A stretch of 64,000 bases of DNA. Source: Asterias amurensis (Eukaryota; Echinodermata; Asteroidea; Forcipulatida; Asteriidae). The stretch is from assembly GCF_032118995.1 (NCBI RefSeq), contig NC_092665.1, positions 12,752,512 through 12,816,511 of the forward strand, written 5' to 3'. The notes under the pieces were generated by a model, which ran no database searches, had not been told where the DNA came from, and was given only the letters and a program-made list of their open reading frames with translations. The translations under genes and the position numbers were made by a program. Below, piece after piece: positions 1 through 32,600 of the stretch (the first letter of the stretch is position 1; each line of letters opens with the position of its first letter).

Positions 1-96
1 GTCTTTAAGCCTCCTACACTGATGTGTAATAAGTGCTATGTGGTTGGTGTTTCAACTCTCCTCATCAAAACCCCAACCTGCTTATTAGATGCTCAC

Positions 97-3000
97 CTTG
101 TGGCCAACGATAGTCAGGTAGTCAATGCCCAGCTCCTCTACATTCACCTGAATCTTGCCGATAGTCTGAGCTGCGTCTGAGTGGAGAAGGATCCGTGGCA
201 TTTCTCGTCTCGAATCGCGTTTGATGGCTCGGATCTGGCGGCAAATTTCTGGTATAGGCTTCACGGAAAAACAATTCAGAAAATGCAAAACCTAGTAAGC
301 TACATTTAATTTTTTTCTCACTTCTGTTATTCTGGTTGCGAAGCCAAAGTATTCTGGTTGTGAAGCCAAGGACTCTCAGCAAAGCGAACTTTAACCCAAA
401 TGGAGAGACGACAAGAAAGGAAGAGTCAGTTTTAGATGTTGGAGGAAAACCCCAGAGAATTATTCCAGCATGTCCAAGGAAAACCTTTGCAGTCAGGTTT
501 GGACTGAAAACCCAATCCACGGCGTGGTTTGAACCGGGTGGAAGGAGAGGAAAGATACCACTACACCAACCTGCCCACATGATCACTGATGTTTGCACCT
601 GGGCCCAATTTCATAGAGCTGCTAAGCACAAAAATTTGCTAAGCATGAAATTTCTTCCATGGTAAAAACAGGATTACCAACCAAATTTCAATTTGTTGCA
701 TATTCCTTGTTACTGTATCCAGCTGTTGTTTGCTCATCCTGAAAATCACGTTGAAATTTGGTTGGTACTGTTTTTATCAAGGAAGAAATTGCATGCTGAG
801 CAAATTTTCATCCCTTAATAATTGTGCCATTTTTTCTGAAGCAAGTATTTAGCAAAAAGTGCAGAGGATTGTTTCAACCGTACCTGAATGATGCCTGTCT
901 CGTTGTTTGCATGCATGATGGTTACCAGACAGGTCGTAGGTCGTAGGGCAGCAATGATGTCACTGACCTCAACATGACCCGTGAGCTTTGAAGCTGGCAC
1001 AAAGGTCACCACTACGAAAAAAATAAGAATTGAGGGATGAGGAAGGGTCAATCAAAGAGAACTGTTGTTTCTATACCAATGTTAATCCACAATAGAAGAG
1101 TTTTTAATTGCAAGGGGATAAATAACTTCAACTAGACCAGTCTTGTGTCTTAACACTTTAATCATAGAGAAAGGACAAGTCTCTATGCTTTAATCAACTT
1201 AAACATTTGATACAAGACCAAACATATCTTTTTATTTTAATATACGTGTAGGCTGAACTGTTTAGGGTGATCTTTGGACTTGAAAAATGGAATCGCCATA
1301 AAGTTTTAAAAAGCATAAATTTACCAGACTTTTTGCAAAACACCAGACTGCAAGGTTGTAGGGTTACTCGCCCGTAGTTTACTCTCCTACTGTTGGTAAA
1401 GGTTTTCCAGCATGGTTTAGCCTAAGGGCTAAGGACACATCGTCATGCTTTCAAAATAACTTTGTGTATAATTACTTTTTAACCACACCAAAAAAGAAAT
1501 TGTTTTAAAAATAAAATGTAACTGTTTTATTTACCGACTTGTCGCTCATCAGCCAGTTGTTCAAGTACTAGTTTGATGGAGTCGTGCTCCAAGTTGGACG
1601 TGATCACATGGGGGAGGAATCTATGCTGATTGGTCGGTCTGACTCCGAGGCTCGGGTCACCGGGGTCGAGCTGAGGAAAAGTCTTCCAGAAATGTTGGAG
1701 CGCAGTGTGGATCACCATGTTGTTAGTCTTTAAGAATGATAAGTTGAAGAGATTATGATACAACAATCAATTTTTTTAAACATTTTTTATGATCAGCTTT
1801 CGTCATTCACCAGGGCCTAATCACATCACGATGCTTAGCACAGAAGTATCTTGCTAAGCAAGTATTCTAAACAAGAGAAAATAGAGTTAGCTGTTGCATA
1901 CTGCTTACCAACCAAAAGGATTTATGGTATAAATGCAAACAGTATGGCCTGACATTTCTGTCTCTAGAAAGACTCGGCTAGGGTCAAAACGTCAGTCCAT
2001 TTTAGTACTTTTTGTATTTTAAACAAGTACACAGTTCAACTGAAACTTTCACATGTGATTTCAATTGTATCTTTTTTGTAATTGGCTATAAATCAGCATT
2101 ATGTTGACAACAACCAATCTATGACCCTACTTTTAACAAGCTCTTGTGGCATTTTCTCTGGGATCTGATGAAAAAAGACGGATTTTGAAACTAAACTTAA
2201 CAGCCACCCTACAAACCTCTGTGCCGCCTGAAGTGAATACGATGTCATCTGATCGATGTGCTCCAATCATCTTGCAAATGTTGTCTCTTGCCTCAGTGAT
2301 GATCTGCTTTGCTCTCTGACCTGAACAGAAAATAAAAACAGAACAAAACTCCACCTGGGCTAGATTTCACAAAGAGTTAAGTTTGTCTTAACTGCCAGCA
2401 ATTAAAAAACACATCTAACAAAACTGAATGGATGAAATTTGAGCATTTTAAACAAGTAGGTTGCAAGTTTTTAGTAGCCCACAGGGCAAGTTGAGAGGTG
2501 GTGTTTACTAGTTTCGACAATAGACAATGTATGCCGGGCTTAAAGGGCAAGCCCTGACCATGTTTGTTATGTTTTATTACCCATGTTGGTCTTGCAATTC
2601 TGGATTATGCATTACAAAGATTACTGTTCCTAGAATGTTGAGTTGTAAATCTTGACATTTATGACAACAGCAAAGACAAACTGTGAGGTCGTTAACCAAT
2701 CTGTATCAGTGTTTACACAATGTTGTTTATGGCCCAACTGGAGTTGCCGTCCAGTTGGGACTGTCCAGCTTATAGTTTAATCAAATTGGGCCTGTCACTG
2801 ACAATACTGTTTACCGAAAGTGTCCAATGGCTTTAAGAAATAAATAAACAAACATATTACCTGCATGATATGGACTACTTGGATTCCCCCAAGCAGCACC
2901 CAACGCGTTGTGGATTGCATCAAGGACTTCTGGTTCCAGAGGAGTGGTAGCGTTGTAGTCCAAGTAAACACTGTAAACAAACAACAACAACAACATTACT

Positions 3001-3651
3001 TTTTTTGCTCCAGACGACGATCAGAGCATATCGGATCAAAACATTGAGTTGAAACCAACAGTTCTTTTCAGAACCACCCCAACTCATTTTGAGATAGTTA
3101 TTATCTTTCCAAATCTTTCCATTTATAACATTAGTTGTATCTCAAATTGTCAGTCTTTTCATTCATCCAATCCAGCCACCTTTAGTCAAGTTAGTGAGAA
3201 AACATCAAGTACACTGCATTTATGACGAACAAAAGCGCACCACAAAGTTTTGAATTCATCATTCAAGTTTTGAATTCAAGTTTTGAATTCAATTCATCCA
3301 AAGTTTGTTGACAATTTGTTTGTTATTTCTAATCAACTGGGCCACTTCAGAGTCAGAACCTTACTGGATGCTAGTACTACTACCACTGATACCATCTGTA
3401 TCACAAAGTACACCATAAAACTCCAATCTGTGACCTTTGTAATAATCAACATGTCATCAACAAATAAGTTAAATTTAAATTGTATTGTTTGTTGTTGTTT
3501 TTTCTTATCAAAAAATTATTGCAAATTGTTGTCTTAGTCAAAAACTTACAAATATACTTCCTTTCTTCTAGCTCCTGACATACCTATCTTCTGATGAATT
3601 ATTTTCATAGCTTGCACATGCAGACCTGCTGACTGGGGTGTTGTCTTCCAT
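97..3651 (-). CDS. SCLY: Selenocysteine lyase, N-terminal part (gene runs off the left edge)
   Basis: Six minus-strand coding exons join in phase: 3584-3651, 2861-2970, 2217-2320, 1535-1727, 884-1011 and 97-258 (765 nt, 255 residues of a family that is usually about 445). The enzyme is a PLP-dependent cytosolic homodimer of the NifS-like aminotransferase class V fold that converts L-selenocysteine to alanine and selenide, feeding selenium back to selenophosphate synthesis. Seen directly: [14 protein letters not shown] and [12 protein letters not shown] in exon 2, FTSGGTE ending exon 3, [11 protein letters not shown] in exon 4, NNETGII in exon 5, and in exon 6 HSDAAQ followed by LTIVGHK, whose lysine (residue 255) is the expected Schiff-base lysine. 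The catalytic cysteine loop and C-terminus lie beyond position 1. The start chosen is the only in-frame ATG of its exon; the first 22 residues are not conserved. Cysteine desulfurase NFS1 is excluded by overall similarity to SCLY. The family assignment is secure. Confidence 0.93.
601..812. mobile_element. MITE family E, copy 1 in a SCLY intron
   Basis: It starts GGGCCCAATTTCATAGAGCT. The two halves, centred near 705, pair imperfectly (GGATTACCAACCAAATTTCA against TGAAATTTGGTTGGTA). The right end is degenerate. Confidence 0.6.
2799..2835. mobile_element. MITE family C terminal fragment
   Basis: The run TTTACCGAAAGTGTCCAATG followed by GCTTTAA matches the family C terminus. Only the last 35 or so bases are present, just downstream (in SCLY sense) of exon 2. 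Confidence 0.45.
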
Positions 3652-3919
3652 TACAAAAGTCTCAGTCTGCTCACTCGAGCCTGTCTGACCTATAATAAAA
3701 AAAAAAAATTATAATCAGCTCTCTCAGACTCCAGGCAAAGAATTATTTACAGAATTTAGAAAGTATATGCAAACTATATCCCCCTTTCTAAATGATTGCT
3801 GTCCCGTGTCAGTATATACTGAAGTGCTTTTAATTGATTGATTTATCTATTATTATGAATATGGTGACACGATGTGGACAGACAGAAACTCTCAATTAAT
3901 TAAGAGGAAGGGACTTACC
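3584..3919 (-). other. SCLY: SCLY 5' region: start-codon exon plus upstream non-coding exon
   Basis: On the minus strand a pyrimidine-rich tract ending in AG at 3690 precedes the exon holding the ATG, so that exon probably spans 3584-3689 with 38 nt of 5' UTR. A consensus donor (GG then GTAAGT) reads leftward from 3918, so an upstream untranslated exon probably ends at 3919 and begins somewhere before about 4050. The splice sites are seen; their use is inferred. Confidence 0.45.
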
Positions 3920-4553
3920 CCGATGTCGTAGCCTTTTTTTTTTTTTACTAGACTCCACCGTCCGTCCGTCACATGTGGACACTGTGTGTGTTCACGAGCT
4001 CATCGTTGTACACTAAACAGGTTAGTTTCAATATCCTGATAATTTTTAAAAGATAGTTTTTATTTTAAGTTGTATTACAAGGAACACAAATTGGGGCTCG
4101 TCGGCACGTCTGACTTCATCGCAAGAAGGAGATCAACAACATTCACTGAGATTTTTTTTTTTATTAAAAGAGCTAGTCAATAGAGGTCGCCCTTCAATAT
4201 TTACTGTCATCATCTGCGCGCTCTGCTGCCATATCGCGTGTTGTGTGCATGGTTTAGCTTATCAAGGAATCAAACCGGAAGTGTGAGGGTCGTGTTGTCG
4301 TCGTGACTGGGCAAATATCTGGCTGATTTCTCCTGCTCGTTCGTTCCGCTTCGCTGACCTGGTGCATTTTCGGTCAGACTAGTCTGGAAATTGTACAGGT
4401 ACAAAAAGCCGGTTAGTCTACACCTAGCTAGCAGCACCTTTCACTTCAGTGAGTGAACCAACGTTACTTTACAGCACAGAGAAAAGTTGTGAACACCCAG
4501 CAATCGACCGCTACAACGTTGTCAAAACACTCACAGCTCATCAACACATCATC
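3920..4553. promoter_or_regulatory. Divergent SCLY/PGD promoter region
   Basis: Only about 630 bp separate the probable SCLY first exon from the PGD start codon, and the two genes diverge. The stretch 4200-4440 is richer in CpG than its surroundings and has no clear TATA box. At 4303-4313 the sequence GTGACTGGGCA fits the antioxidant/NRF2 element consensus RTGACNNNGCR. PGD is an NRF2 target in vertebrates; use of this site here is inference. No RNA start can be fixed from sequence alone. Confidence 0.5.
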
Positions 4554-7500
4554 ATGGCAGAGTAAGAGAAGTTTTATTTTTCCCTCCCTCCTTAAATTTT
4601 TAACTTGAGTTTTCGAATGCATGGTGCAGACTGGAACTGGGTGCAGACTGGAACTGGATGCAGCCCATCCCATTTACTAGCCTAGGCAGTGGTCCGGCCT
4701 TGTTGATTTTTGTCGTTTCCTTGTTTGCTGTCCGTACTCTTTCTCAAGGACGTTTCATTCATCGTGTTCCTTCGTGGAAACTAATTATTAAGGAAGGAGT
4801 TTTCATCTTGGCTTGGGAAAATTGTCGGATTTCGTCTCGGTCTTTTTTCTGTCATATTAAACAGCAATGATCCACAGTTTTAAACGTTGTTACTATTAGT
4901 AAAAAAAAAAATTAAGAGCTACTGACGTACTGTAAAAAAAAAAGACAATTTTGAAGTAATAAGTATTTTTGACCTGGCTTGACCATGGTATGGTTTGACC
5001 CCAAAAAAATGACCAAATTATTTCTGAACTGAGTTAATCCAGCCTTCCTTGTGTTTCGAAAGATTTAAAATGTGTAGTGTTGCTTTAAAATGAGTTATTA
5101 ACTTTTAACTAAATGAGTGTGACTTAAAAATTTTATCAATTTTTGAAAAACAGTTTATAAATGCTTTTTAAATGTGTGGCGTTGAAACTATCATTTTACT
5201 CAAATTACATTTAAACTTAAAAAGCATATTATACCACACCTGTGTGTTAGTCATTTATATCCTGGTTCAATCCACTTCCTTGTTCGTTCTAAGTACCACT
5301 CCACTACTCTGGGTAAATCTTATTAAATGTTTGTACACCTCAGTTTAAAAAAAAACCAATTAATTAATGAAATGTTGTTAGATGAGAAGAGCTTACTGTA
5401 AAATTTAACAAAAACTTTAAAATAAATAATGTTTAAAAATATACAAAAATATTTCTGATCTTAGGGTGGAATTCACAAAGATTTAAGACTAGTCTTATCT
5501 CGAGTTAGGACGATGTACGACTTTTTTTTTAGTCCTAACTCATTGTGAAGTCCACCCCTGGTTTGACCATGGTTTGACCAAAATTTCAGGTTTAAATTGT
5601 AAATTGTTGCTCTCTAAGCTGTATGACTTTCAAACTTTATAGTAGGCTAAAAGCTCCCGTTTTAAATGTTCCCTCAACAACATGAACTTCAAGAAAGATC
5701 CTATTTTACAAGACAAAATTGTATTCAATCTTGCAGTGCATGTTATGCAAATTACATTTACACATGTGTATCCGAATCCCTTGTCAATGGTCTGGCTGGC
5801 TGGCTAATTTCTACATTGCATTTTCATAGACCTTTTTTTTTTTTTAACCAGCACAAAATGTTCAAAACAAATTAAAAGTACCATACAAATAACAGGGTTG
5901 AAAGAAAATCTTAGTCAATGAAAAAGCTGGTGGACCAGCCATTTGAAAACTAACTGGTACTGGCTAGTCACTGAAAACAAAAGCTATTTTTAAAAGTAAT
6001 TCTTTTTCCAATGGTACAGGTTGAGATGATCATTTTACACAAATTGCAAGCATTTACCACACCTGTGTGTAAATTTATATCCTGGTTCAGTCCATTTCCT
6101 TGTTCGTTCTATAGTACCACTGCGAGGTCAAGCTTTTTTAATGTTAGTACACCTCAGTTTTAAAGGAAGGCCAAGCACTGTCTGGTTACTATTAAATGAA
6201 CTGTTGTTGACTTTAGGACTGTTGTTGACTTTGGGACACGTGGCGTGTTGAAGCGCTATACTTGGCACTTGGAGTGTTGTGGCTGAGCAAACTACAGCCT
6301 CAACACCCTGCATGTCCCAAAGTTAACACCAAGGTGCTTTAGACTCAAGTTCTGGTGGTCAATCAATCAATCAATAAAACATTTATTTCCACATTCACAT
6401 CACATGGAGGCATCATCCTAAAAGCCGAGGCTTGTGGCGGATGTGCCCGTTACAAGATTACAGAACAAAACAGGAATACAGCACTAAATAGACGAATAAA
6501 TAAATACATACCACTACGGTAGATAACTACACAAAAGTGCTGTTCACATGACATCAATTTAACTGGGGTCCCTTGCTTAATTTTAGCGTGGTTGTAAAAT
6601 GTAGTGTTTGACAAGCTAAATTGCAAAAGAACCTAGACGTAGCAGAAAATGATTTTGTCCTTTCACACAAGGTAAATTTTGTATAATTTTACAATACAAC
6701 CATGCTGTACCTTAGCAAGGGACCCGTGTAAAAATGCTTACGTGTGAAAGGGGCTCTAGTCTTTGAATCGGCATGTGGGTTCGAATCCTGCTCGTGACAC
6801 TTGTGTCCTTGACTAAAACACCTATAGCTTCACCCAGTGGTAAATGGGAGTGTGTTATGGCAGAGATGGTTCTTTCTTGTGAATGATTTGGCTTGGTGCG
6901 CCACATTTTTAGGCAGTACAGGCTGTGTGATGTAATAGTCGATGCTCTACATCCAAAGTAATTTCTTTTGCCAAAGCTGTGGTGCGGTGATGATTTTAAT
7001 TCAAATTGTGTTCAAAAGTTTTAGCTTGGAGAAAGGTCGTTTTTAGAAAGGAAAGTTATAGTTTTACTGAGTACATTTCTGTAACAGCATCAAATCAGAG
7101 GTCATAATTTGTACAGGAAATGATAGACTTTCTATTTTGGCTAAATTACCATGTAGGCCATGTGTGTAAGTTCCTCAGGTTAGTGCTGGTACCATCACAT
7201 GCTTTAAAGGAACACGTTGCCTTGGATCGGACGAGTTGGTCAAAACAAAAGCGTTTGTAACCGTTTTGTATATAATGGTTGGAAAGATGTTTTAAAAGTA
7301 GAATACAATGATCCACACAAGTTTGCATCGAAATTGCGTGGTTTTCCTTCTACTGTGCGAACTAACACGGTCGGCCATTTATGGGAGTCAACATTTTGAC
7401 CCCCATAAATGGCCGACTTGTTAGTCGACGAGGTAAAAGGAAAACCACGCAATTTTGAGGCATGTTTGTGTGGATCATTGTATTCTACTTTTACAACATC

Positions 7501-10500
7501 TTTCTACCCATATGCATTTTATAAAAAACGGTTACAAACGCTTTTCAAAGACCAACTCGACCGATCCAAGGCAACGTGTTCCTTTAAAGGCGGTTTTGTT
7601 GCTGACAAACTACTTTTAAAAGGATGAATGAACTGATGTTGGTATGCTTAAATTCCTAAGTCAAAATTCATGTGTTTTTTTTAGACGAACTCAAAAATAC
7701 AATGCCTACTTTTATATGTCGAGCTTTTCAAGTACCATGTAAAGGTCCAACATATTTTTTTTTAAATAAGAAATAACCCTCATGGGAATGCTCTGTACAC
7801 AGGTACAAATGTACTTAAGACTACATACAGTCTAGTGGAGATTTGTTCCGGAATTCTAGCACAGTTACAAACTATCTGAGCATTCCCTCTATTTTATTTG
7901 ATCTACGTTTATTACCCTCTTTTGTAATCCATCTTCACAAATGCGGTTGTCGTTCACCATGTTGTTGCTTAAAAATAAATAACTTGGCAAAGTGTTCTCC
8001 AACTTTGAATGTTAGTAAGCTTGGGCGATATCACGATATTATCGAATATCGCGATATTAATTTGGAAACGATTTCGATATCGGATGGATTTGGTTTTAAT
8101 CGAAATATCGATATATCGCAATAATCGCGATAATCGCGATATATCGCAATATCGATTAAATATCGCGATGTATTTGCTAGCTGAGACATCTTGCACCTCA
8201 TAGGTTTGGAGTAAAAGCAGAAGAATAGGTCATTAGAACACCTCTCTTAAGCTATGACTGTCTCTTCTACAACTTTCACTTGGAGTTTTAAGACTGATGA
8301 TGTCAAATTTCATTAATCGCGATTATATCGAATATCGCGATATATTGTCGGCGATATATCGTGAATAAAATAAATCGATATCGCCCAAGCTTAAATGTTA
8401 GGCCTAAAGGTCGGCGCTTTGGGGGATCAATGTGAGCCCATTCATGCTTCAGGTAGTTATTGTCGTGTTCAAAGACCAAACTGTTCAGACTTTAGACCTT
8501 TCATTGGCACTTTAGTTTCCATTGTTATAAAATAGTTTGGTTGGTCTTTCACTGAATGTTGTTTAAATGTCACAGGATGCAGTCCTGACTGTGTGATGGG
8601 AGTTTAGAGATGATGGGAGTGGCATACTAATTTGTGTTTAAGGGACCCATGTAAAACAGTGAAGCCAGAATATTGGCTTTCAGCTAGCCACTGTGTGAAG
8701 TCCATACATGTAGTAATAGGATAGTCTCTCGAAGGTAACAATTATAGCTATTTAGCTCTGAAATTTGTTTCCCTAGTGCAGCATTTTTGGTAATTTGCAT
8801 TCATTTGCTTCAAGCAGTGTTTGACATTTGGACAAATGTTGTGCTTTTGATAGGAGTGTATTGAGGGTAGAGCAGACTCTGCTGACTGAGTGGTAGGGAA
8901 TGGTTTCGTTTTTTCTTTCTTTGTTAACCCTCCTACTGTCTGACCAATTCCAATGGGGGGATGACTTCAAGTAATAGATCAAGTGAACTACGTTATGCCA
9001 GCCTGCATTTATGTGATGGAGGACTTGAAATTTACAATGGACCACCACTCGTAGTATTGAGCCACTACTTAGATTAAGTCTGGCAGTCTTGTGGGTTTTT
9101 TTAAATGTTTTTTTTTATAATTATCGCTGTACATATTACTATGTTAAAAAAAACCATAGACAACAGATGTTCAGATGTTAACTTTGACTCTGATAATTTA
9201 ATTAAGAATATACATTATTACTACATCTATTATTATCGTTGCGGTACCCGCTGCCACAACATAGGATTCGAACTGCCTCTAGCAATTGCACGGTTTTCCT
9301 TTTACATGTGTACCTCGAGGACTAACACAGTCGGCCATGTATTAGTTCCGACCGTGTTAGTTCGCAAAGTTATAGGAAAACCACACAAATTTGTGTGGAT
9401 CATTGTATTCTACTTTTAAAACATCTTTCCAATATATGCATTTTATGACAAACGGTTACAAACGCTTTTTTAAGACCAACTCGACCGATCCAAGGCAACG
9501 TGTTTCCTTTAACATAAGCCCAGAATTCGGCATTGGAAAGCAGAGCCAAGAAACTGGTCCCTGGTTTGAGCTTTCGAGCAGGAAGTGCCTGGTTTTAGCA
9601 TGGGTTTGTTGCTAATTGTGTTGTCAAGAGGTGTTCTTCATACTTTTCTTTTGTCATGTCCCACAGTGTACACAGTTATTTTTTGGCATAGTCATGGTGG
9701 TGAAAGCTCAATGGTTCTGTGTATAGTGATGCCAGCAGTAAACAATTTGTTGAACAGTCAACTTGCTTAGAAATGTTGCCATAGAGTGGGTCATACACAA
9801 TCTTAGTATTTTTAGCCTTCATTTTGGAGCTCTGTACTTTAATACCGTGTTATTTAGTTTTTCTGTTATTATTGTTGTTTTCAAGAAATTCATCAAGTGT
9901 TTTTTCCTTGTCCATTTGCTTTTACTGCAATTGCTAGTTTCTTGAACCTTAGTAAGTACTGAAAACTTCATCCGACCAGTGTATAAGACCCTCTCCTCCC
10001 CGTTTCACTTGACCCCCGCTCCAAAACTCATGGGTAAAGGGAATATGGGTGGTTGCCAAGGCAAAGAAAGCAATGTCCGGGTTGTTCCGGACCATGATAA
10101 ACCAATTAGTGAAAAATCAATGGATGTAAAGAAACAGGCGAAACAGTCCGTTGACGATGGTCTGAAACATCGAGGCAATGATGAGAGGTAAGAAGGTGGT
10201 TTTTTACAAAAACACCGGTGTGTCCCCTTTTTGGTGATGGAACAAATGTTATCTGCCCATATCTTTATTTTTTACTCATTCAGGATTTCAACAATAACAA
10301 TTTTGCATTAAAATATAATTTTCCATTAACCGTTGTGTATAAAGCAATTGTATGATGGATTGCACTCAGGCCTATATAGTGTAGTCGACCACCATATTTG
10401 ATGATTATAGTGGCGATGTGCACGCGATGCACACAACTCTTGGCCAATGATAGCCTTTCATGCGTGCACGTTTCATCAAAGATTGTGGTTAATGGCGGCA

Positions 10501-13500
10501 TGCGCAATCCATTTATTATACTCAGTACTTTCCTGAGTTCTGTGAAAAAAGTGCTTCAAAGTTGTTTGTTTTGGTCCCAATAATTAAGGCAGATGTTATA
10601 AACCAATTTACTTCCCAATGCAACAGGATCCCAACTTGTGAAAAATATGCTTCAAACTTGTTTGTTTTTGTCCCAATATATAAGGTAGATGTTATTAACC
10701 AATTCACTTCCCAATGCAACAGGATCCCAACTTGTGAAAAATATGCTTCAAACTTGTTTCTTTTTTTTTCCCCCAATAATTAAGGCAGATGTTATAAACC
10801 AATACACTTCCCAATGCAACAGGATCCCAACTTGGTGCATGTCAGACTTTTGCTTTCAACTGGGCAGTTTGATGCATTTCATGCCTAGATACTCTTTAGC
10901 TGTAGATTGATTCAAACTGATCTTTGAAACAGTTTCAACTAACATGCTCACAAGTTCTGTAAAAAAAAAAGTGCTTCAAACTTGTCTTTCTTTCAATACT
11001 GAAGGCAGCTGTTATAAACCAGTTCACTTCCCAGTGACACAAGATCCAAATTTGGGATCCCACTTTGCATTTGTTCATCAAGTAGTCAGAGTTTCATATC
11101 GAACTTGTCTTTCTTTCAATGCTGAAGGCAGGCATTATAAACCAGTTCAGTTCCCAGTGACACAATATCCAAATTTGGGATACCACCTTGCATTTGTTCA
11201 TCAAATAGTCCGAGTTTCAAACTTGTCTTTCTTTCAAAACTGAAGGCAGCTGTTATAAACCAGTTCAGTTCCCAGTGACACAAGATCCAAATTTGGGATC
11301 TCACTTTGCATTTTGTTCATCAAATAGTCAGAGTTTCAAACTTGTCTTTCTTTCAATACTGAAGGCAGCTGTTATAAACCAGTTCAGTTCCCAGTGACAC
11401 AAGATCCAAATTTGGGATCTCACTTTGCATTTTGTTCATCAAATAGTCAGAGTTTCAAACTTGTCTTTCTTTCAATACTGAAGGCAGGCGTTATAAACCA
11501 GTTCAGTTTCCAGTGACACAATATCCAAATTTGGGATACCACCTTGCATTTGTTCATCAAATCGTCCGAGTTTCAAACTTGTCTTTCTTTCAATACTGAA
11601 GGCAGGCGTTATAAACCAGTTCAGTTCCCGGTGACACAAGATCCAAATTTGGGATCCATCTTTGCATTTGTCATGTTTGTACATCAAACAGTCAGAGTTT
11701 TGCTTTTGAACCAACTGTGGTGCATTTTGATGCATATCATGCCTACATTCTTCAGGTGAAAATTCCTTGAAACTGATCTAATTTCAGACAGTTTTTTAAT
11801 AAATAAACATGCCTCGAAAGGTTTGACTGATGATGACGATGAGAACATGTTTTTTTTTCTTTGTTTTTTTCTTCTTCTGATTGTTTTTTTTTTCTCTCTC
11901 TTTTGTTTTCAGGGCAGACATTGCACTGATCGGCCTGGCCGTTATGGTAAGCAAAATATTTTCTTGTTGAAGTTGTTATTGACCAATTTCATATTTTTAT
12001 AAACAACCCAATCCCGCCAATGGCATGTAGCGCTAACATGACCAATCAAAAAAGTCACGAAGAAAACTACAGGCTAAAAAAATGCAGAGCAACATTTATG
12101 TAACTGGAATGTTGCAAGGGGCACCACGGCAATAATCATAATGGGCATAGAGGAAGTTGCTTCCATTGCCTCTGTGAAGTATCATGCCTGAAATTGGGAC
12201 ATTTTAAGGTGCACCGAGGCATTAACCAGAAAGGCCAGGCAGTGCTTCCATTTATGAAGTATCAAGCCTGATGAATCTGGTCAGAGCAGTTCAAGGGGCA
12301 CCAAGGCAATGACCAGGGGGCATGGAGGCAGCTTCATAAAATGTAGACCCCCATTGCCTCTGTGAAGTATCAGGCCTGAAACTAAAACATTTCAAGGGGC
12401 ACCAAGGCAATGACCAAAAAGGCCAGGCAGTGCCTCTATTTATGAAGTATCTGCCTGAATCTGGTTAGAACGTTTCAAGGGGCAGCAAGGCAATGACCAG
12501 AGGCATGGAGGCAGTTGCCTCCATTTTCTCTGTAGATTATCAGACTTTTGAAGTAACATTGTACCGCAGAAGACTCTGATAGCAATGCAGTAGTACAATT
12601 CATCAAATTTATATTTCTGATTGTAATATTTCTTATGTTTCTTTTAACAGGGACAGAACCTGATCCTGAACATGAATGACCATGGATTTGTGGTGAGTAT
12701 TTTATTTTTTGGGCAAAACCCTAACTGTCTGACCATTCTGACTATGCCAGCCGGCAATATCACACAGAACTCGGGGGAAAGAACTGAGTATACAGTGCTA
12801 ATAACACACATCAGTGTAGTGGTGTATGGATAAAAAACAACATTCTTTAACATTTTTAACCCTGGGGCAAATTTAACATCTCTTATACATACATGTAGCA
12901 CAGCCAGCCATCCTACTTCAGATTATTCAATATCAACCACTGTGATTGTGAGTGAGGAATAAATTTGCTAACCTGCAATTTGATGTGGTGAAAACAAACA
13001 TACAAAGAAGTGCGGAAGTCCCTGATCTGTAAGCAGAGCCATCAAATTGGACGCTGTTGGTATTCCCACTGTTTGGCCGTGTCAGAAACGTTGACTTCAG
13101 CTATTACAGCTACGGCTAGATCGCGCGTGTCTGCCTTTTCTTCAACACTGGTAGACGTGCTGATCTAGCCAAAGCTATAGCCGAAATTGCCAATTCGAAC
13201 AAGGCCTTAACGCCAAGTCACACTGCAGCGATAACGATAACGACGCAAAGAGAAGGCATTCTACTGGTTGAATTGCTCCACGCAGAATATACCCACGCTC
13301 ATTCAACCAATCGAGGGTGTGCATTTTTTCTCGCTTTCGTTCACGTTATCGTGGCCTGTGTGACCAGGCCTTTACTCTGAATTGGAGGACTAGAATTTGT
13401 CTTTACCCGGTTTCTATCGGTGACAGGTCTGCGCCTTCAACCGTACCGTCTCGAAAGTGGATGACTTCTTGGCCAACGAGGCTAAAGGTACTAAGATCAT

Positions 13501-16500
13501 CGGTGGCAAGTCCTTGGAGGATATGGTGTCCAAACTGAAGAAGCCTCGACGTGTTATGATGCTCGTCAAAGCCGGGTCTGCTGTGGATGCCTTCATTGAC
13601 AAACTGGTACGTCGTAAATGTAGGACATGTAAGATGGGAGGTTCTGCATGGTGGAGGTTGTTAATGAATTAAATTTCTTTTTTGGGGGGGTTGAACAAAG
13701 AATTGACTAGAGTGGGATTCGAACCAACAACCTCTGGATTAACATGCCGGCGCTCTACCAACTGAGCTATCTAGCCCTATATTGGCGGTGTCCCTATTTT
13801 GTCAATATCTTTGTTCGGGGGTGCCATTAAATTTTAATAGACACAAGTTGTGATATTTTTCAGAAATTCTTTTGACTCTCCCCAAATTTTTATTTCAAAT
13901 TTCATTTTTGTAAGGGGCCATTCAGAATAGTCACTTTTAAAAAGGTGTGAGATTTTTCCGAAATTCTTTTGACTCTTCCCAAATTTATTTTTAAAAGCTG
14001 GTCTAACTTTACGTATCTTATACACTGAAGAACAATCAAATGTCTGGTACCAAGCAGAAGATTAAGATCATATGCTGATTTCAAAACAGGGCTAGTGTAG
14101 CTAGCTACATGTACGCCCTAGGCTAGCCTATTTGGCTGAAAGTTCTCTTTTGAAATTGGTCCCATAGGTTTTCAAATTACTTGGGGAAAGTACCGAGTTA
14201 AGTGCATTTACACTATGTACTGTAGGGTAAAACACAGTACTGCAAGAGTGGCTCTAACTTACATGTAGCCTTGCTAAAGGCAGTCAAATTATTCACTCCG
14301 AAAAAAGACCGCAGCTGTATAAAAATCCACCCGTATTCACTGTGCGTAAAATGTGTGTAACCACATCGCACGACACGATGCCCCCGTACACTAACCGCAT
14401 GTGTCGGCCGTCAGCCTGACGGCCTCCGCATGCGGTTAGTGGTACGAGTGCTTGTGTGCACAGTAGTCGTACGATGTGACAGTGTGTATACGGGTGGGTC
14501 ATGCGGTGTGATTACACGCACCACGCACAGTGTATACGGGTGGGTTTACAGCGGCGTCTTTTCGGTGCCTTGAGCAAGGCTAGCTCTAACTAAGCCTTAT
14601 TTTGGGCAAAATAAAGTCACCGCTGGGGGCGCTTGATCCGGGATTGAATAGGTGAATAAATGAATATTATTAAGTCAACAAAGATGCATAAAAAATACGT
14701 TTTTTATAGGTTTTTCTGTCCGTCACACCTACATTATAATACAAAGATATTAGTAAAAGTTATAACAATGTGTACTGTTAATGCACTTTTTTCAAGCCAA
14801 AATTGCCCTTCAAAGTGCCTTGCATTATTATTTAACTATGATTGTCATCGAGCTCTAAGCCTTCCTCAAGCAATCTCAACCTCTTTGAGGAGTGTAGCAC
14901 CATCAGCCAGGAGGGCACAGGTTTCTAATCAATCACAACAATGATCTCTACCCTCGCAGGGTCGCAATCTCTACCCTCCCTGGAATGAGATTGCCAATTA
15001 TAATTAAGTGTTTTGCTCAAGGACACAACTGTCACGACTCAAGACCTGAATTCACACCACTTAGGCCATGCAGCTGCGGACACACATATTAATATTTTGC
15101 ATTATTATGTACATGTACATGTATGCTGCACATAAGTTATGTCAATCCGAATGTCTCAGGGTTTTTTCGAGGCCAATTATTTCTGTCTACTGGAATGCCA
15201 AATCAAATTTGGTTAATTTTATAAATTTATGAATCATAAAAAAAATTTTAAAATTAGAAAAAAAGTAAGGGCACCAGAGCAGCTCTAAATTATTGAGTTA
15301 AAATCGCGACTTTTATCTGAATTGTTATTGTGTCTTGTTTTCAGGTTCCTCTTTTGGAGAAAGGTGATATCATCATTGATGGTGGTAACTCTGAGTACTT
15401 GGACACGACAGTAAGTATAGCATTATGGTCATGTCACATCTCAAACAATTTACAGGCAACCAAGTTAAAGCAATTACTGTTTTTATTAATAGTATTGGTT
15501 TATTGAAATTAATTAGATGTACATTTTTCATCTTGTCTTGTCTTAAATTAAGGGTTCTTTGGCCAAAGTTCAAAAATTTAGGTCCAGAATGCCCCATAGT
15601 TGAGAGACCCCTGGTCAAAGATTGGTTAATACCCAACAAAATGTATTGACCAAAAAAAAACTTCTTTTGTAGGAAATGTTGGACATATTGGAAGAAAAGG
15701 ATTCCCATTCAAAAAAGGGATTCCCTTTTGAAAAAAGGATTCCCAATTGAACATTGAAAATATGGGTAGTGTTAATTGTGTCTTCCGCCATCTGATTAAT
15801 ATTGGTTTATAAATCGTGTTAACAGCGTCGCTGCAAAGCCCTCCAAGAGAAGGGGATTCTATTTGTTGGTAGCGGTGTGAGTGGAGGAGAGGATGGTGCT
15901 CGCTACGGTCCGTCCCTCATGCCCGGAGGAGCCAAGGAGGCCTGGTAAGATAGTGATGTTTAAGTTGAGAAATCATTTCATTCACCATGTTCACTTTGAA
16001 GTAATATGGCTACTTAAATAGATATATGTTTTTATGCCCCCAAATTTGAATCTGAGAAGCATTACTGCAGTAATGTTTCTCAGATTGTGTATTCCTACTA
16101 GGGATTACTCTTCGCTCCGGATTTGATATCTCCAAAAACGTGACCATCTTTTGAATTTAATTAGTCACCAATTTATTTTGTTGTATTGACCACTGGCACG
16201 CACGTCACACGCGGCGACTGTGTCACGCTCACCTTTTTGGTTGGCAAATAGGTTTACGTGTAAACGCAGCATCGCCTAAAAATACCTACTACACACTGAA
16301 TAACGCATAGTGACATTGACCACCAAGATGGCGCATCCAGGATTTTTTTATGATGACGTCGGGTGATTTGGGTCATTACACTACATTATACTGTCATAGG
16401 ATTAATACGATCAAACGGTTACAAAAACCAACTTTAAGGTATACTTTTCAGCTGCTGTTGCAGGGACCTAATGTTAAAGGCAGTGGACACTATTGGTAAT

Positions 16501-19500
16501 TGTCAAGGACTAGTCTTCACAGTTGGTGTACCTCAACATATGCATAAAATAACAAACCTGTGAAAATTTGAGCTCAATCGGTCATCTAACTTGCGAGATA
16601 ATAACGAAAGAAAAAACACCCTTGTCACACGAAGTTGTGTGCGTTTAGATGGTTGATTTCGAGACCTCAAGTTCTAAACCTGAGGTCTCAAAATCAAATT
16701 CGTGAAAAATTACTTCTTTCTCAAAAACTATGGCACTTCAGAGGGAGCCGTTTCTCACAATGTTTTATACCATCAACCTCTCCCCATTACTCGTTACCAA
16801 GTAAGGTTTCGTGCTAATAATTATTTTGAGTAATTACCAGTAGTGTCCACTGCCTTTAATAGACAAGTAGGACTTAGCTCTTTGCGATGGCTTTCTACAC
16901 AAAAAAACATTCTCCCTATTACTTTGGAATTGGCTCTGTTGATTGATAAGTATAAGAAAATAATTTTGAGAAATTTCCTCTTTGTTTCGTTGTGTTTCAG
17001 GCCACATGTCAAGGATATTTTCCAGGGCATTGCAGCTAAAGTTGGCGATGAGCCATGCTGTGATTGGGTGAGTGATTTATTCATGCGTTTATTTTTATAA
17101 TGGGTCACACTACATGAATGTTCCCTTCAGGGCTTAATGAAACTGATACATATTCAGTATCTTTGGTGTTTATGAATAATTCAGTTACCTCTGCGGCTCA
17201 GGAGATTTTTGTAATCACTCTTAAAGCCATTGGACCCTTTCGGTAAAACAGTATTGTCCAAGGCCCACACTTTGTGTATCGCAACTTCTATATCAAATAA
17301 CAAACCTGTGAAAATTTAGGCTCAATCGGTCATCGGAGTCGGGAGAAAATAACGGGGAAAACCCACCCTTGTATCTGCACGTTTCGCCGTGTCATGACAT
17401 GTGTTTAAAATAAATCCGTAATTCTCGATATATCGAGAATTGAATCGAGAATTGATATTGTTTTACTGTTTTCTCAACAACAAAAAAGTCTTTCACCATT
17501 ACCTTCTGTAAACCCTGTAAGTTATTTGTAAATCTGTGAACTTTTTTGTTTCGTTTCTGTACCGAAAGGGTCCAATAAGCCTTTTTGAGATATGGCGGAC
17601 ACATTGCTAAATGTACAACACTATCAGGTTTGGGTAAATTTGTGTGTGTACACCCAAACCAAACAGTCCACCCCTATCACGTTCGCCATACCTCAAAAAG
17701 GCTTATGGCTTTAAAATGAATGGCAATAATAACGTTTGGGTAGAAGCTTAAAGCAGCCTTCGATAGTACATGTATAAATCATTTTTAGAAACATTTCACA
17801 AAGTAATGTAGTTATGCCCCAAATTTGAGTCTGAGGAATGTCCTCAGATTGTGTATTCCTAATAGGGAGTATTCTTCTTGCGTGGACGTACATAATCACT
17901 CCCGATTTTCGGCGCTATCTCAAAAATATTACCACATGTTAGTTTTATTGTATTGACCCCTTGCACGCGCGTCACACGCGGCGACAGTACGCAATACACC
18001 AGATGGTGGACTGTACTTTCACGGAAGAAGAAGAAGAAGACTGATGCCATGCGCACCATGTTGGTGGGCAGTTAGGTTCACGTGTATTAACGCCACGTCG
18101 CCTAAAATGCACGCTTCACTGCATAATGCACAGCATAGAGTTATATATACAAACGCACAGTGAAATTGCCCACCAGTATGGCGCATTCAAGATTTTTCGG
18201 ATGATGACGTCAGGTGAAATGGGCCATTACACCTACATTTATATAAGATTGAAACAATCGAGCGGTTAAAAAAACCAAAGGTATATTTTGTCGCAAAAGA
18301 AGTTACCTTAACATGATTATCCGTATTGTTACTAGATATCATGAATATTTATTATGTTTGTAAACTATGAATAATTCATTCGTGTCATACAGGTCGGAGA
18401 TGAGGGAGCAGGTCACTATGTGAAGATGGTACACAACGGTATCGAATATGGAGACATGCAGCTGATCTGTGAGGCGTACCACTTGATGAAAGACCTCCTT
18501 GGAATGTCCTGTGATGAAATGGCAGAGGTAATTAAAGGAACACGTTGCCTTGGGTCGGTCGAGTTGGTCTTTGAAAAGCGTTTGTAAACAGTTTGTTATA
18601 AAATGCATATAGGATTAGAAAGATATTTTAAAAGTAGAATATAATGATCCACACAAGTAGACATCTGGGCCCAATTTCGTAGAGCTGCTGCGCAAAAAAA
18701 AATTGCTAAGCATGAAATTTTTGCCTTGATAAAAATAGGATGACCATACAAATTTCTTCGTGATTTTCAGGATAAGCGGAGAATAGCTGAATACCAGTAA
18801 CAAGCAATATGCAACACATGAAAACTTGGTTGGTAATCCTGTTTTTATCAAGGAAGAAATTTCATGCTTAGCAAATTTTTGTGCTTAGCAGCTCTATGAA
18901 GTTGGGCCCTGCTTTAGACATCTCATGTACAATGATGAATTTTGTTTGTGGACAACAGGTGATGGCTGAGTGGAACAAGACAGAACTGGACTCCTTCCTG
19001 ATTGAGATCTCAGCAGACATCCTCAAGTTTAAGGACACAGACGGTTCACCGCTGGTGGAGAAGATCCGTGATACGGCTGGACAGGTTGGTCTCTAAAGAT
19101 ATATCTTTGGTTAAACCAGACCGATCCATTAAGCCCAGCCCCATAACATATTGACCAATCACAACCCATTGTGCAACCAAAGGTCCGTCAAATTAAGGTC
19201 CGACATGCGTGCGCGTATGCTTGGCGCGCGCGGCAGAGTTGTGCAGAATGGCATGGGAGAGGCACACGTGTTTTTGCTCGCACGTGCGCCGTGGGCGAGC
19301 CTAATGGATCGGTGTATTATTTCTCCAATATGAGGTTCTTTCCTCTTCTCTCTTATAACAACTGCTCCACCACTGGTCTCAAATTCGGGTGACAAAACCT
19401 CAAGACTGTATGTACACCAGGGCTTGATGCTTGATGTTTGATGATTACCCCTATTAAAGCAGTAAGCTTGTCCAAGGTGTGGTACATGTATAGGGGTGGT

Positions 19501-22500
19501 CGTGTTGTGCGGTCAGGAAGGTGCAGTATTTTACAAGGTGCGAGTAAAAACATCCTTGTAGCTCGGCATTTTTACTGGACCATAACTCTTTTTACATAAC
19601 GAATCAAAATGCACCAGACTGCAGGGCTTGTAGCTCAGCATTGTTACTGGTTTTTGAGTATTGATCTTTGGTTTTGGTCATCTTCTTTCTCGAACAGAAA
19701 GGAACGGGAAAATGGACTGCCATCTCTGCCTTGGATGCTGGTATGCCAGTCACACTCATTGGTAAGAAGTGATTATGCGAAATATTTTTACTTGGTTATT
19801 AAATAGCACACATATCCCAGCAGCTATATATCAAGGGGCTTTACAACATTTTTATCTTAAAGCCATTGGACACTTTCAGAACAGAAAAAAACAAAGGTTC
19901 TCAGATTTACAAATAACCTACAGGGTTTACAGGAGGTAATGGTGAAGACTTCTCTTGAAGTATTGTTCCATGAAATGCTTTACTTTTTGAGAAAACATTA
20001 AAACAACTATCAACTTTCAATATCGAGAATTACGGATTTATTTTAAACACATGTCATATGACACGGCGAAACGTGCGGAAACAAGGGTGGGTGTTCCCGT
20101 TATTTTCTCCCGACTCCGACGACCGATTGAGCCTAAATTTTCACAGGTGTTATTTTATATATAAGGTGTGATACACAAAGTGTGGGCCTTTGGACAACAC
20201 TGTTTACCGAAAGTGTCCAATGGCTTTGATAATCGAAATGAAAAAAATCTGAAGGTTTTGGGGGGTTTTGTTTTTACCACGCCTCTGACCTATTCATGTT
20301 TTTTCTCCCCCACCAAATCGTTCCCTAACTCAGGAGAGGCAGTGTTTGCTCGTTGTCTGTCTTCCATTAAAGATCTACGCATTGAGGCTAGCAAGGTCCT
20401 TCCCGGCCCAGGCCCAGCAAAGTTTGAAGGAGATAAGAAAGAAATGGTTGAGCACATTCGCAAGGTTTGTAGTTCTTAAAGCCATTCAGTCTTGATGACA
20501 AATCACGACACTGATTAAAAGATTTTGGTACTTTTTCAAAATGTCCACAGATTTACATTAAACTTACTGGGTTTTTAAGATAATGACAGTGGAAAGCTTC
20601 CCTTCAAATATTACTTACTGAGGTGCTGTAGTTTTTGAGAAATAGGTAAAACAGTGTCATAAAAATATGTTTGTAAATGTTTAAAATAATTTTCATGACA
20701 TTGTTTTACTCATTTCCCAAAAACCACAGCACCTCAGCACATAATATTTTCAGGGAAGCTTTCTACTACCATTATCTTCAAACTGTGTAAGTTTAATGTA
20801 AATCTGTAGACATTGTGTTTTTTGTCCTACAAAAAGTACATACCGGTACACCCTTTAATCTTCGACCTCTGGATTAATGTATTGGAACTCTACCAACTGA
20901 GCTATCCACCCTAATGTTGGCGGTCTATCTATTCATGCTAATGGTCAATATCTTTGTTCAGGGTTGCCAGTCAGAAGCCATAAAATAATCGTTAGATGCA
21001 ACGTTTTTTGTAGTTACCATCAATTTTGAAGACTTTATTTCATCTGGTTTCAGGCTCTGTATGCTTCCAAGATTGTTTCCTACACCCAGGGTTTCATGCT
21101 TCTCCGTGAAGCAGCGAAACAATTCAACTGGACCCTGAACTACGGTGGTATTGCGTTGATGTGGCGCGGTGGCTGTATCATCCGCAGGTATGGAATAAAA
21201 AAACATGCAACCCAAACCTACATGTACCCCGATTAATTTAATTCGGGTTTCATCTTTGAGGTAGCAAGGCCATTTTCATTTTGCAGAGGGCACTTTTGGC
21301 GGACAATCTCAAAAGTTGTTTTAAAGGGAACACCTTGCCTTGGATCGGTCGAGTTGGTCTTTGAAAAGCGTTTGTAACCATTTGATATAAAATGCATATG
21401 ATTAGAAAGATGTTGTAAAAGTAGAATACAATGATCCACACAAACATGCCTTGAAATTGCACAGTTTTCCTTTTACCTAGTGGACTAACACGGTCGGCCA
21501 TTTATGGGAGACAAATCTTTGACTCCCATAAATGGCTGACCGTGTTAGTTTGCTAAGACATCTTTCTAACCATATGCATTTTATAATAAACGGTTAAAAA
21601 CGCTTTTTACAGACCAACTCGTCCGATCCAAAGCAACGTGTTCCTTTAAAGTTTTGAAGGGGCACCAGGGCAACAAAGACTGTTACCTTTGTGTGACCTT
21701 TGTCTAATACCAAGTACATTATTGCAGTTGAATTTTTCCCCTGTTTCGCCTATATTCATTGAAATCTGAATGATGGTATGTCTTCATTTTACAGCCGTTT
21801 CCTTGGTAACATCAAAGAAGCCTTCGACAAGAACAGTGAACTTTCCAACCTTCTTCTTGACGACTTCTTCAAGGGAGAAATCCTGAAGTGCCAGGTAACA
21901 TCATTTATATCCCCCTACCCTACCCCACCCAATACTCTAACCCATCCTTCCCAGCTGCTCTCTCCTCCATCCCATTTTGTAATAAAACCAGTTTGTTCTC
22001 GATCTCTCTTCAAGGACTATTGGCGCAAGGAGGTATCCCAAGCTTGACTGGTATAGCCGAGTGCTGCGCCCTGGCACCGCTAAACTCAATTATCAACAAG
22101 GCCTACCAGCCCCACCCCAACTCTTACAATCCCCTTTCTTATAATAAATCCACTTTTATTTTTTCTCAAGGACTCTTTGCGCAAGGTTGTTTCCCAAGCT
22201 GCCTTGACTGGTATAGCCGAGTGCTGTGCCCTGGCACCGCTAAACTCAATCATCAACAAAGCCTACCAATCCCACCCAACCCAACCCCAACTCTTACAAT
22301 CCCCTTTCTTATGATAAATCCACTTTGATGTTTCTTCAAGGACTCTTGGCGCAAGGTGGTGTCCCAAGCTGCCTTGAATGGTATAGCTGAGTGCTGCGCC
22401 CTGGCACCGCTAAACCCACTCATCAACAACACCCACTTTGGCACCTGTAATCCCGTCCATCAATAATGCCAACCCATCCCATCCCCAACAATCCCCTTCC

Positions 22501-29633: not shown

Positions 29634-32600
29634 ATGAGTATTCCTCCGAATCGCCATCCGTGTTGTTTGGGGCATATCAATTTTTACTGGAACAGAACAG
29701 GTGAAAAGAGGGGCCCCCGATGCCCAATGTGTCTTTCTCTGCCGTTGCGAGACGCCTGCATCGCGTCCGATCGACCCACCCAACTAGCGGGCTTCGTGAA
29801 GCTCTTGAGTAGCGTGACGCGGCGTCAGCCCGGTGAGAAACTGGACCCGGAGGCGATGGCTTTGGCCCTGGGTAGGGACAAGGACTGGAGGGTTAGACAA
29901 GTGGAAATCATGAGGGCGATACAGAGGGCACTGACGGTGGCGAAATTTGACCAGAAGGTAATCAAAACAAAAGGCCTAGCATAGGGACTTTAGACTTTTA
30001 GATTTTTAGAGTTAGATCCAGTAACTGGGGCGCTGTAGTGTACAATGTTTGTCAAAATTTCGAAAACAGGAGTATTATTATTATTATTTATTATTAACAA
30101 GTTCTTATATAGCGCATTTTCACAAACCGTATCAATGCGCTTTTTAGTCCCCTGGTCATAGGGCCAATAAACATCCCTTTAATCTTTCTCCAGCTCCCAT
30201 TAGGGAGACAGCCCCGAGCTGCCGTGGCGCTCCGAAAGCTTTTCATTCACAATATCAACCTCTACCCTCGCAGATTGATACCCCTGGGTGAAGAGAAGCA
30301 ATTATAGTAAAGTATCTTGCTCAAGGACACAAGTGTCACGACCGGGATTCGAACCCACACTCCGGTGAATTAGCACCAGAACTTGAATTTGATGCTCTTA
30401 ACCACTCGGCTGCGACACTCTACAGCGCCCCAGTTACTGGGTCTAGCCTACATTACACTGTACTTCAAACTTGATTTTTTTTTTAGTTTGCCATACTTTT
30501 TGATTTGATTTGATTTGATTTGTTTCTTACTATCAATTTATCACTCTGATTATATTCATATCATTGTTGTCTAAATTTCTGCATCGGGATTTGGGGATAT
30601 TTTTCCGCACCTCGCTACCAATTTTTCACTCATTTTTACAAAAAGGGATAGGCCTATCTCTATAATGAGGTAACTAATTAAATTGGATACTAAATTATTT
30701 CATATCAAACATGTCGAATGAACAAGTGGTGGCGTGATATGGAAACTTTTCCAAATCCCAATCCGGATAACTTTCCATATAGACGCCACCACTTCTTCAC
30801 AAATTTTTACTAAAAGGGATATCTCATTGAGGTAAATTAAAAACTATATTATTTCATATCAAATGAAAAATTGGTGGCCTCATACAGATACTTTTCCAAA
30901 TGAACCATGCGATTGTGAACCTCATCATCAGCAGACACACAAGGATAGGAAAGATAACATTACCACACTCCTACTCCTACTTAGGCCAAATAACAAAAAT
31001 TACCAGTTGATCGTCCGGATTTTTCAAAAAAGAGGAGGATGAGGGCCTTACTATTGACTATTTACTGTTTTTTTTCAAGATGGCCGCTAAGTATTTCAAA
31101 TCAAACAGGCCACCAATTCTTCAGTTTGAATCAACCGCAAACTTATTTATACCATATTGTAGTTGCATGAGGACCTGTATGAACACTAACACTAACAGGG
31201 TCGGATAACACTAAAAAGATTTGCCGGTAATAAGGCATTCACTAATATTGTTATTATTAAACAGACGATTACAAGTGTTCGAGAGCATCAAGTTAGATAC
31301 GGGAAAAGTTCCTAGGCCAGTCCTTGATGGATAACAAATTTCTTTTTAAAAGATCAACGATCAACTGGTATTTCTTTTTATTTTGGCCTAACATGTAGTC
31401 CTATCTAGTGAAGTAGAATTATCTTAACAATAGTTTGAGGAGTTGGCAACGCACCAAAGAGAGGAACATTGCAACATTCAAATATTTTCCTGTGGTCTGG
31501 TGGATGGTTTTTGAAGTATTTACTTTACACAAAGGTTTACGCCTACAAGGGTGCTGTGGCGTAATATATGCAGCCAATCATATCAACGCCCGTTTTACAA
31601 AGCAATAAAATTCATCGCAAGACAAGTTTTCAGTATCACCATAGTGATTTGTATCGTGACATCACACTTTGCAATTACGATCAATTTTAGATCTTTGTGA
31701 AATCAGCCCTAGCAACACTGGGGCAAACCCCTTTTTTTTCTCGACAAGTGCACGTTTTCTCCACCCATTACACAGCACAGGATCATCTGCAGACTTGTAG
31801 ACTAAAAAAAAAATTTGTGGGGAATTGTGCCTTTTCACTGAACCAGTCAATATAAAATGGAGTGTTAAAAAATGAACAAGATTGAAATTATTTATTATTA
31901 CTCTGTTTCAATTATTTTTCTTTGCAGATTACATTTTGTCAAATCATCGATACAAGGGGACCAATAAGTATCAACGTAAGTACTTGGATATTCATCAAAA
32001 TTTGAGAATTATTTATCAGCCCAAAAATCTGGAGTACATGTAAGCTTCATGATCATTATCATTTAGAGATAATGGCCCAATTTCATGGCTGATGGACTCT
32101 GTTGTATCTATACATATGCCTACAGAAGCTCTAGGCCCTTTTCGAATCATTGGGGCAATTCCAAGCAAACATGGACAGGACACCAAGAAAAATTCATCTT
32201 TCCACTTAGAAGTTATAGCTAACATATGAAACAAATTTATTTTTAGTTGTTGACAAGGAATGAAACAAATTTTTCAGAATAAGAACTCAGCTTGGGCTCC
32301 ATGTAGGTGTGGCTACATTGTCTAGGAAAACTGTAATGCGACTGACCGTAATGCGACTGACCATGGTTTTGCCATGTTTACCTAAAAGTTCAAGTTGCTG
32401 ACCATTCATAAGTATCCTGTTGGATACTCATGTATAAGAGTTGTGTGTTACATATAGTGACACTTTCGCAAGCTTTTTGATATAGGAAATTTTTGAATTG
32501 TGACAAGTGTGTTTTTTACCATGTCCTTTTTGTGTAATGGGACTGACCGCTTTTTACAGCGTTATAACATCCAGAGGTCAAAGCCGACAACATTTCTAAT

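Follow-up and report, generated by a model that had tools for sequence, protein, structure and literature searches.

Does the PGD gene of the starfish Asterias amurensis possess a second first coding exon within its intron 1, and what would such an exon add to an enzyme that is usually regarded as a cytosolic housekeeping protein? The question is raised by a first-pass annotation of a 64,000-nucleotide stretch of DNA (hereafter, the window), in which an open frame at 10030–10187 was proposed to join PGD exon 2 (11913) in phase and to supply a possibly lipidated N-terminus. In this study, we examined the gene structure, splice signals, coding statistics and possible relatives of this candidate in the window, which is located on genome contig C18 and provides the coordinates given below unless another contig is named, and in the genome as a whole (491.5 Mb, 23 contigs). 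Judged from its sequence, the candidate is probably (with a probability of about 0.6) a genuine alternative first coding exon that would give PGD a hydrophilic N-terminus of 48 or 53 residues.

The PGD gene and its surroundings

The forward strand of the window carries an intact PGD gene, which in our gene model comprises 15 exons and codes for 482 residues with no internal stop (Table 1). Two stop-free models with GT/AG introns were obtained, and the first of them was chosen because its exon 10 reads as PGD. The canonical start at 4554–4561 was the sole match in 1–11912 to the start-plus-donor pattern searched, and it completes the 482-residue model. Over its whole length, this model matches PGD chains in the PDB, such as the human chains 5uq9 and 2jkv. 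A profile search of the genome with PF00393 gave six matches, all of which fell within this gene, and thus no second copy of PGD was seen. With regard to this family, exons 2–15 represent the full canonical enzyme, matching the PDB chains from end to end, whereas the candidate exon would exchange the initial MAE for 48–53 residues that have no convincing PDB counterpart.

Some additional features were observed in the introns of this gene. A tRNA match (Rfam RF00005, 53.3 bits) is present on the minus strand at 13704–13776; it was the only one obtained in an Rfam search of 1–26000, which gave none at the candidate exon. The intron before exon 14 (21895–23511) contains six extra copies of the acceptor end and first codons of this exon (at 22015, 22171, 22341, 22661, 23020 and 23348), four of which are identical to the exon over 27 bases. 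These partial copies continue into other sequence or stops, and form a row of decoy acceptors through which PGD could be mis-spliced. Intron 1 holds two tandem arrays shortly downstream of the candidate exon, 10541–10834 (period 96, 3 copies) and 10975–11671 (period 119, 5.8 copies), both about 60–65% alike.

Elsewhere in the genome, two nuclear copies of mitochondrial COX1 were noted on the minus strand (L010 and L011, at C5:658874–660214 and C5:675294–676634). Both cover all 436 profile positions and have 12 TGA, compared with 11 in the mitochondrial copy. They lie 16,420 bases apart, a spacing close to the 16,427 bases of the mitochondrial contig C23, which carries COX1, and this similarity perhaps points to an insertion in tandem in the nuclear genome, or else to faulty assembly. 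Of the two genetic codes compared for this mitochondrial contig, tables 9 and 5, table 9 (echinoderm and flatworm, AAA = Asn) places Asn at conserved sites.

Table 1. Features of the PGD gene and of the candidate first exon (positions in the window)
Feature	Position	Strand	Description
PGD exon 1, canonical coding part	4554–4561	+	ATGGCAGA, ATG GCA GA, phase 2, donor GTAAGA
PGD intron 1	4562–11912 (7,351 bases)	+	Donor GTAAGA at 4562, acceptor TTTTCAG ending 11912
ATG-free stretch, candidate leader and promoter region	9776–10029 (254 bases)	+	Preceding ATG at 9773
TATAAG, possible weak TATA box	9982–9987	+	48 bases upstream of the 10030 ATG
Candidate alternative first coding exon, coding part	10030–10187	+	52 codons plus two bases, ending GNDE(R)
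Second in-frame ATG	10045–10047	+	A at −3, G at +4; begins MGGCQGKES
Candidate donor GTAAGA	10188–10193	+	GAG/GTAAGA, 10.2 bits
PGD exon 2	11913–11946	+	Accepts phase 2
PGD exons 3–8	12651–12692, 13427–13606, 15345–15410, 15826–15944, 17001–17067, 18393–18527	+	
PGD exons 9–15	18959–19084, 19698–19761, 20334–20464, 21054–21187, 21795–21894, 23512–23634, 24261–24380	+	

An open frame ending at a strong donor

The candidate frame starts with the ATG at 10030, runs through 52 full codons to 10185 and ends with AG at 10186–10187, which is followed by GTAAGA. The coordinates and phase assigned by the first-pass annotation were therefore accurate: an open ATG frame reaches exon 2 in phase 2 at a good donor. 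Counted from the upstream TGA at 9943 to the TAA at 10189, which lies within the donor, the open frame spans 80 codons. The 53-residue peptide contains 11 Lys or Arg and nine Asp or Glu residues.

Splice-site strengths were calculated with approximate donor and acceptor matrices. By this measure, the candidate donor was the only one in intron 1 to reach at least 10.2 bits, and it was stronger than all 14 donors of PGD itself (4.3–9.1 bits). We also simulated introns of equal length and counted those with an open frame of this length that ended in phase 2 at a donor of equal or greater strength. Such a combination was found in 0.67% of introns simulated at first order (1,500 runs, 53 codons) and in 0.87% and 1.0% of those simulated at second and third order, respectively (1,500 runs each, 52 codons); with the donor threshold set at 8 bits, the fraction was 4.3%. 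When the coding score was added, no match could be observed in 3,000 simulated introns, 1,500 for each of the two Markov orders used. It should be noted that the chance checks used here and below (donor, open frame, coding score, periodicity and their combination) share data and are thus not to be multiplied.

Coding statistics of the candidate

The coding score was trained on 7,660 codons from this genome, which were derived from 25 of 30 kinase loci, 25 of 30 carrier loci (these being themselves 30 of 136 and 30 of 102 matches listed) and five of the six PF00393 stretches of PGD. Loci with stops, near-duplicates and loci of the same gene were excluded, and L041 was omitted by choice. The candidate scored 0.158 bits per codon. 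Of 212 coding windows, 70% scored this high, compared with 1.3% of 3,370 windows from introns and 0.3% of 1,606 windows that were free of stops; these windows overlap and are not independent, and the intronic scores should be raised by the presence in the background of a tRNA, PGD exon 13 (21795–21894) and the greater part of the exon-14 decoy array. The highest-scoring forward-strand window of 156 bases in intron 1 begins exactly at 10030 and the next separate one scores −0.039, so that no further partner this large is apparent in intron 1; shorter exons would escape this test. Dinucleotide shuffles of the candidate frame reached its score in 4.8% of 30,000 cases, and in 3.2% of those that were stop-free.

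The three-base periodicity of the candidate was 0.098 bits. With the same intronic background, a periodicity that high was found in 23% of coding windows, one of 909 intronic windows and none of 850 stop-free ones; it was also found in 0.24% of 20,000 base shuffles, and in 0.67% of the 449 stop-free sequences among them. On the minus strand, the best window of intron 1 (9952–10107, score 0.064) overlaps the candidate exon and its leader in antisense, and is probably a shadow of this exon.

Synonymous codon use, on the other hand, speaks against a second first exon. The synonymous score of the candidate (−0.094) is intron-like: 94% of the 212 coding windows scored higher, 35% of stop-free intronic windows reached it, and every one of the 17 PGD windows exceeded it (lowest, 0.030). 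The total score of 0.158 was also below all 17 PGD windows (lowest, 0.188), a comparison in which five PGD pieces belonged to the training set. Besides, GC3 was low (0.38 vs 0.57), and the +1 frame of the candidate scored 0.102, close beneath the frame itself. Given the intronic synonymous choice and the low GC3, the coding signal resides at the first and second bases of the codons. This would suit an exon that is young, weakly expressed or of unusual composition, and also a stretch of intron rich in purines.

Similar frames in the window and in other loci

The same kinds of signal were searched for in real DNA. A filter applied to both strands of the window (donor of at least 8 bits, 52 open codons with ATG optional, score of at least 0.05) gave 11 places, including the candidate. 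Four of the 10 others exceeded the Pfam curated cut-off (6PGD, MYND and two class-V aminotransferase matches), one had a TPR match below the cut-off and five had no Pfam match at all. The places at 33733, 37440, 38905 and 41815 precede or sit among the TPR/MYND places and are perhaps parts of the same gene; the place at 29832 is dubious.

With a donor of at least 10.2 bits and a 52-codon ATG frame in any phase, five matches including the candidate were found on the forward strand of the window and none on the minus strand. One of the five, at 37440 (phase 0, score 0.024), reuses a donor counted before, in a second frame. In flanking DNA from 60 other loci (360,000 strand-bases with 33 such donors), some of which are overlapping or near-duplicate and which contain unlisted exons, three matches were obtained. 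By its sequence, one of these is a carrier exon; another lies in a 303-codon open frame, and the third, in the flank of L060, has a non-coding score (−0.128).

Upstream region and start codons

The stretch that precedes the candidate lacks ATG over 254 bases. Among 151 ATG-to-ATG distances in intron 1, only one other is at least 230 bases; it is longer and lies within a tandem repeat. The best acceptor in 9850–10187 had 4.4 bits (exon start 9886), compared with 12.6 and 9.8 bits for exons 2 and 3, the sole two used for comparison. Weak acceptors together with the ATG-free stretch favor a first exon whose leader lies in 9776–10029. No clear promoter was found for it. TATAAG or TATAWA occurs 17 times in intron 1, so that the TATAAG at 9982 is unremarkable alone. 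Support for the earlier proposal that PGD has another coding first exon comes from the rank of the donor, the coding-score peak at the ATG, the periodicity, the ATG-free stretch and the lack of an upstream acceptor near the strength of those of exons 2 and 3.

Start-codon context is linked to leaky scanning of ribosomes. The first ATG has C at −3 and G at +4; since the second has A at −3, leaky scanning to 10045 is plausible. The internal start MGGCQGKES reported by the first-pass annotation is indeed present in frame, and the tail that begins there has 48 residues, not 53.

Searches for relatives

At E values up to 10, no Pfam family was found for the candidate peptide. Its DNA and its peptide each matched the genome once, at the candidate itself, and no relatives elsewhere in the genome were detected by the DNA search or by the protein search to E 10. 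Among viral contigs, 11 pattern matches were obtained, none of which was confirmed. We also searched the PDB at E up to 10 with the candidate peptide joined to the residues of exons 2–3. This search gave 19 sequences, of which 16 were PGD chains that matched almost wholly in the exon 2–3 part. The other three were weak matches over the new segment (E 0.13, 0.96 and 7.4; a designed helical repeat protein, N37 and a binder) and were taken as chance. No description of a PGD isoform of this kind was found in titles and abstract openings of a literature collection with few subscription papers.

Alternative explanations

The competing account that deserves most attention is that the open frame arose by chance in a purine-rich patch of the intron and ends at a strong cryptic donor, which is either unused or a source of splicing noise alone. 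In its favor, the candidate looks intronic in its third positions and its synonymous choice, and the peptide has neither a Pfam relative nor one within the genome. A frame plus donor alone is expected in about 1% of introns, with many introns available to pick among, and the match in the L060 flank provides a similar case with a non-coding score. We consider this explanation possible, with odds well below even. Against it, no simulated intron of 3,000 was retained once the coding score was added, the score peak starts exactly at the ATG and the donor stands above all 14 PGD donors.

The segment might instead be a later exon, lying behind an upstream untranslated exon (for example, with its start at 9886, in which case 10030 would still be the start codon) or serving as a cassette after canonical exon 1. 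The moderate acceptor of 4.4 bits and the absence of ATG between 9886 and 10030 would suit the untranslated exon, but this acceptor is weaker than those of exons 2 and 3, the sole two compared. As for the cassette, joining canonical exon 1 to the 9886 start would lead to an early stop, and the sole open cassette among acceptors above −6 bits starts at 9957 with an acceptor of −2.9 bits. Both forms of a later exon appear quite improbable. The slimmest chance is given to a separate gene nested within intron 1, of which the segment would be the first exon. Such a gene would agree with a peptide that is unlike PGD and with the finding that the joined query matched PGD almost entirely through its exon 2–3 part; however, the phase suits PGD exon 2, the forward strand of intron 1 offers no further coding-like window of 156 bases, and the downstream regions 10541–10834 and 10975–11671 are tandem repeats.

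A possible alternative N-terminus of PGD

If 10030–10187 is an alternative first coding exon, a second transcription start would lie in intron 1 slightly upstream of 10030, and the strong donor at 10187/10188 would be spliced to exon 2 at 11913. Met-Ala-Glu would then be replaced by a 53-residue tail when the first ATG is used, or by a 48-residue tail through leaky scanning past its weaker start context. The remainder of the enzyme would be unchanged and the tail, placed outside the catalytic fold, may act as a localization or interaction segment. PGD chains in the PDB have extra residues ahead of the enzyme start (in 2jkv, the match begins at residue 23), which shows that an extension is tolerated by the fold.

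Could such a tail carry a lipid, as the first-pass annotation suggested? The PS00008 pattern for myristoylation is M-G-{EDRKHPFYW}-x-x-[STAGCN]-{P} at the true N-terminus. Two starts are available to it in the candidate frame: the second (MGGCQGK) fits, whereas the first (MGKGNM) is outside the pattern. At position 6, the second start has Gly, which is allowed; the residue favored there for myristoylation is Ser. By composition, the pattern is expected by chance at about 1.4% per Met. The fit to the myristoylation rule holds for the internal start and fails for the first one, and the proposed membrane attachment is compatible with the sequence and no more. Myristoylation of the shorter, 48-residue form is possible, a hint that the alternative-first-exon reading does not need.

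A comparable arrangement is found in NADH-cytochrome b5 reductase, whose membrane and soluble forms arise from alternative first exons. This redox enzyme works alike in that an N-terminal segment decides between membrane and soluble form: its first seven residues are described as a myristoylation signal by which it is targeted to the outer membrane of mitochondria, and its lipidation was tested by mutagenesis (PMC8745658). It is, however, unrelated to PGD, for which the candidate lipidation is a sequence pattern. More generally, alternative first exons that alter protein N-termini are a known class (PMC2174465). The candidate would resemble this class as a putative additional first exon that encodes an N-terminus of its own.

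Taken to its full extent, the idea is that an echinoderm PGD isoform from an intronic promoter, started by leaky scanning at MGGCQGKES and myristoylated, would place the NADPH production of the oxidative pentose phosphate pathway at membranes, with the nearby Cys perhaps also palmitoylated. We regard this whole chain as rather unlikely. One example of a site is the egg surface, where such an isoform may lie beside NADPH-consuming oxidases. In sea urchin eggs, G6PD is reported to be rapidly activated at fertilization (PMC12533372), and we infer from this that echinoderm eggs are a natural place to look for the isoform. If the alternative first exon is real, selected by its own promoter and carries a targeting segment, the choice between two first exons could position within the cell the second step of the pentose phosphate pathway that yields NADPH.
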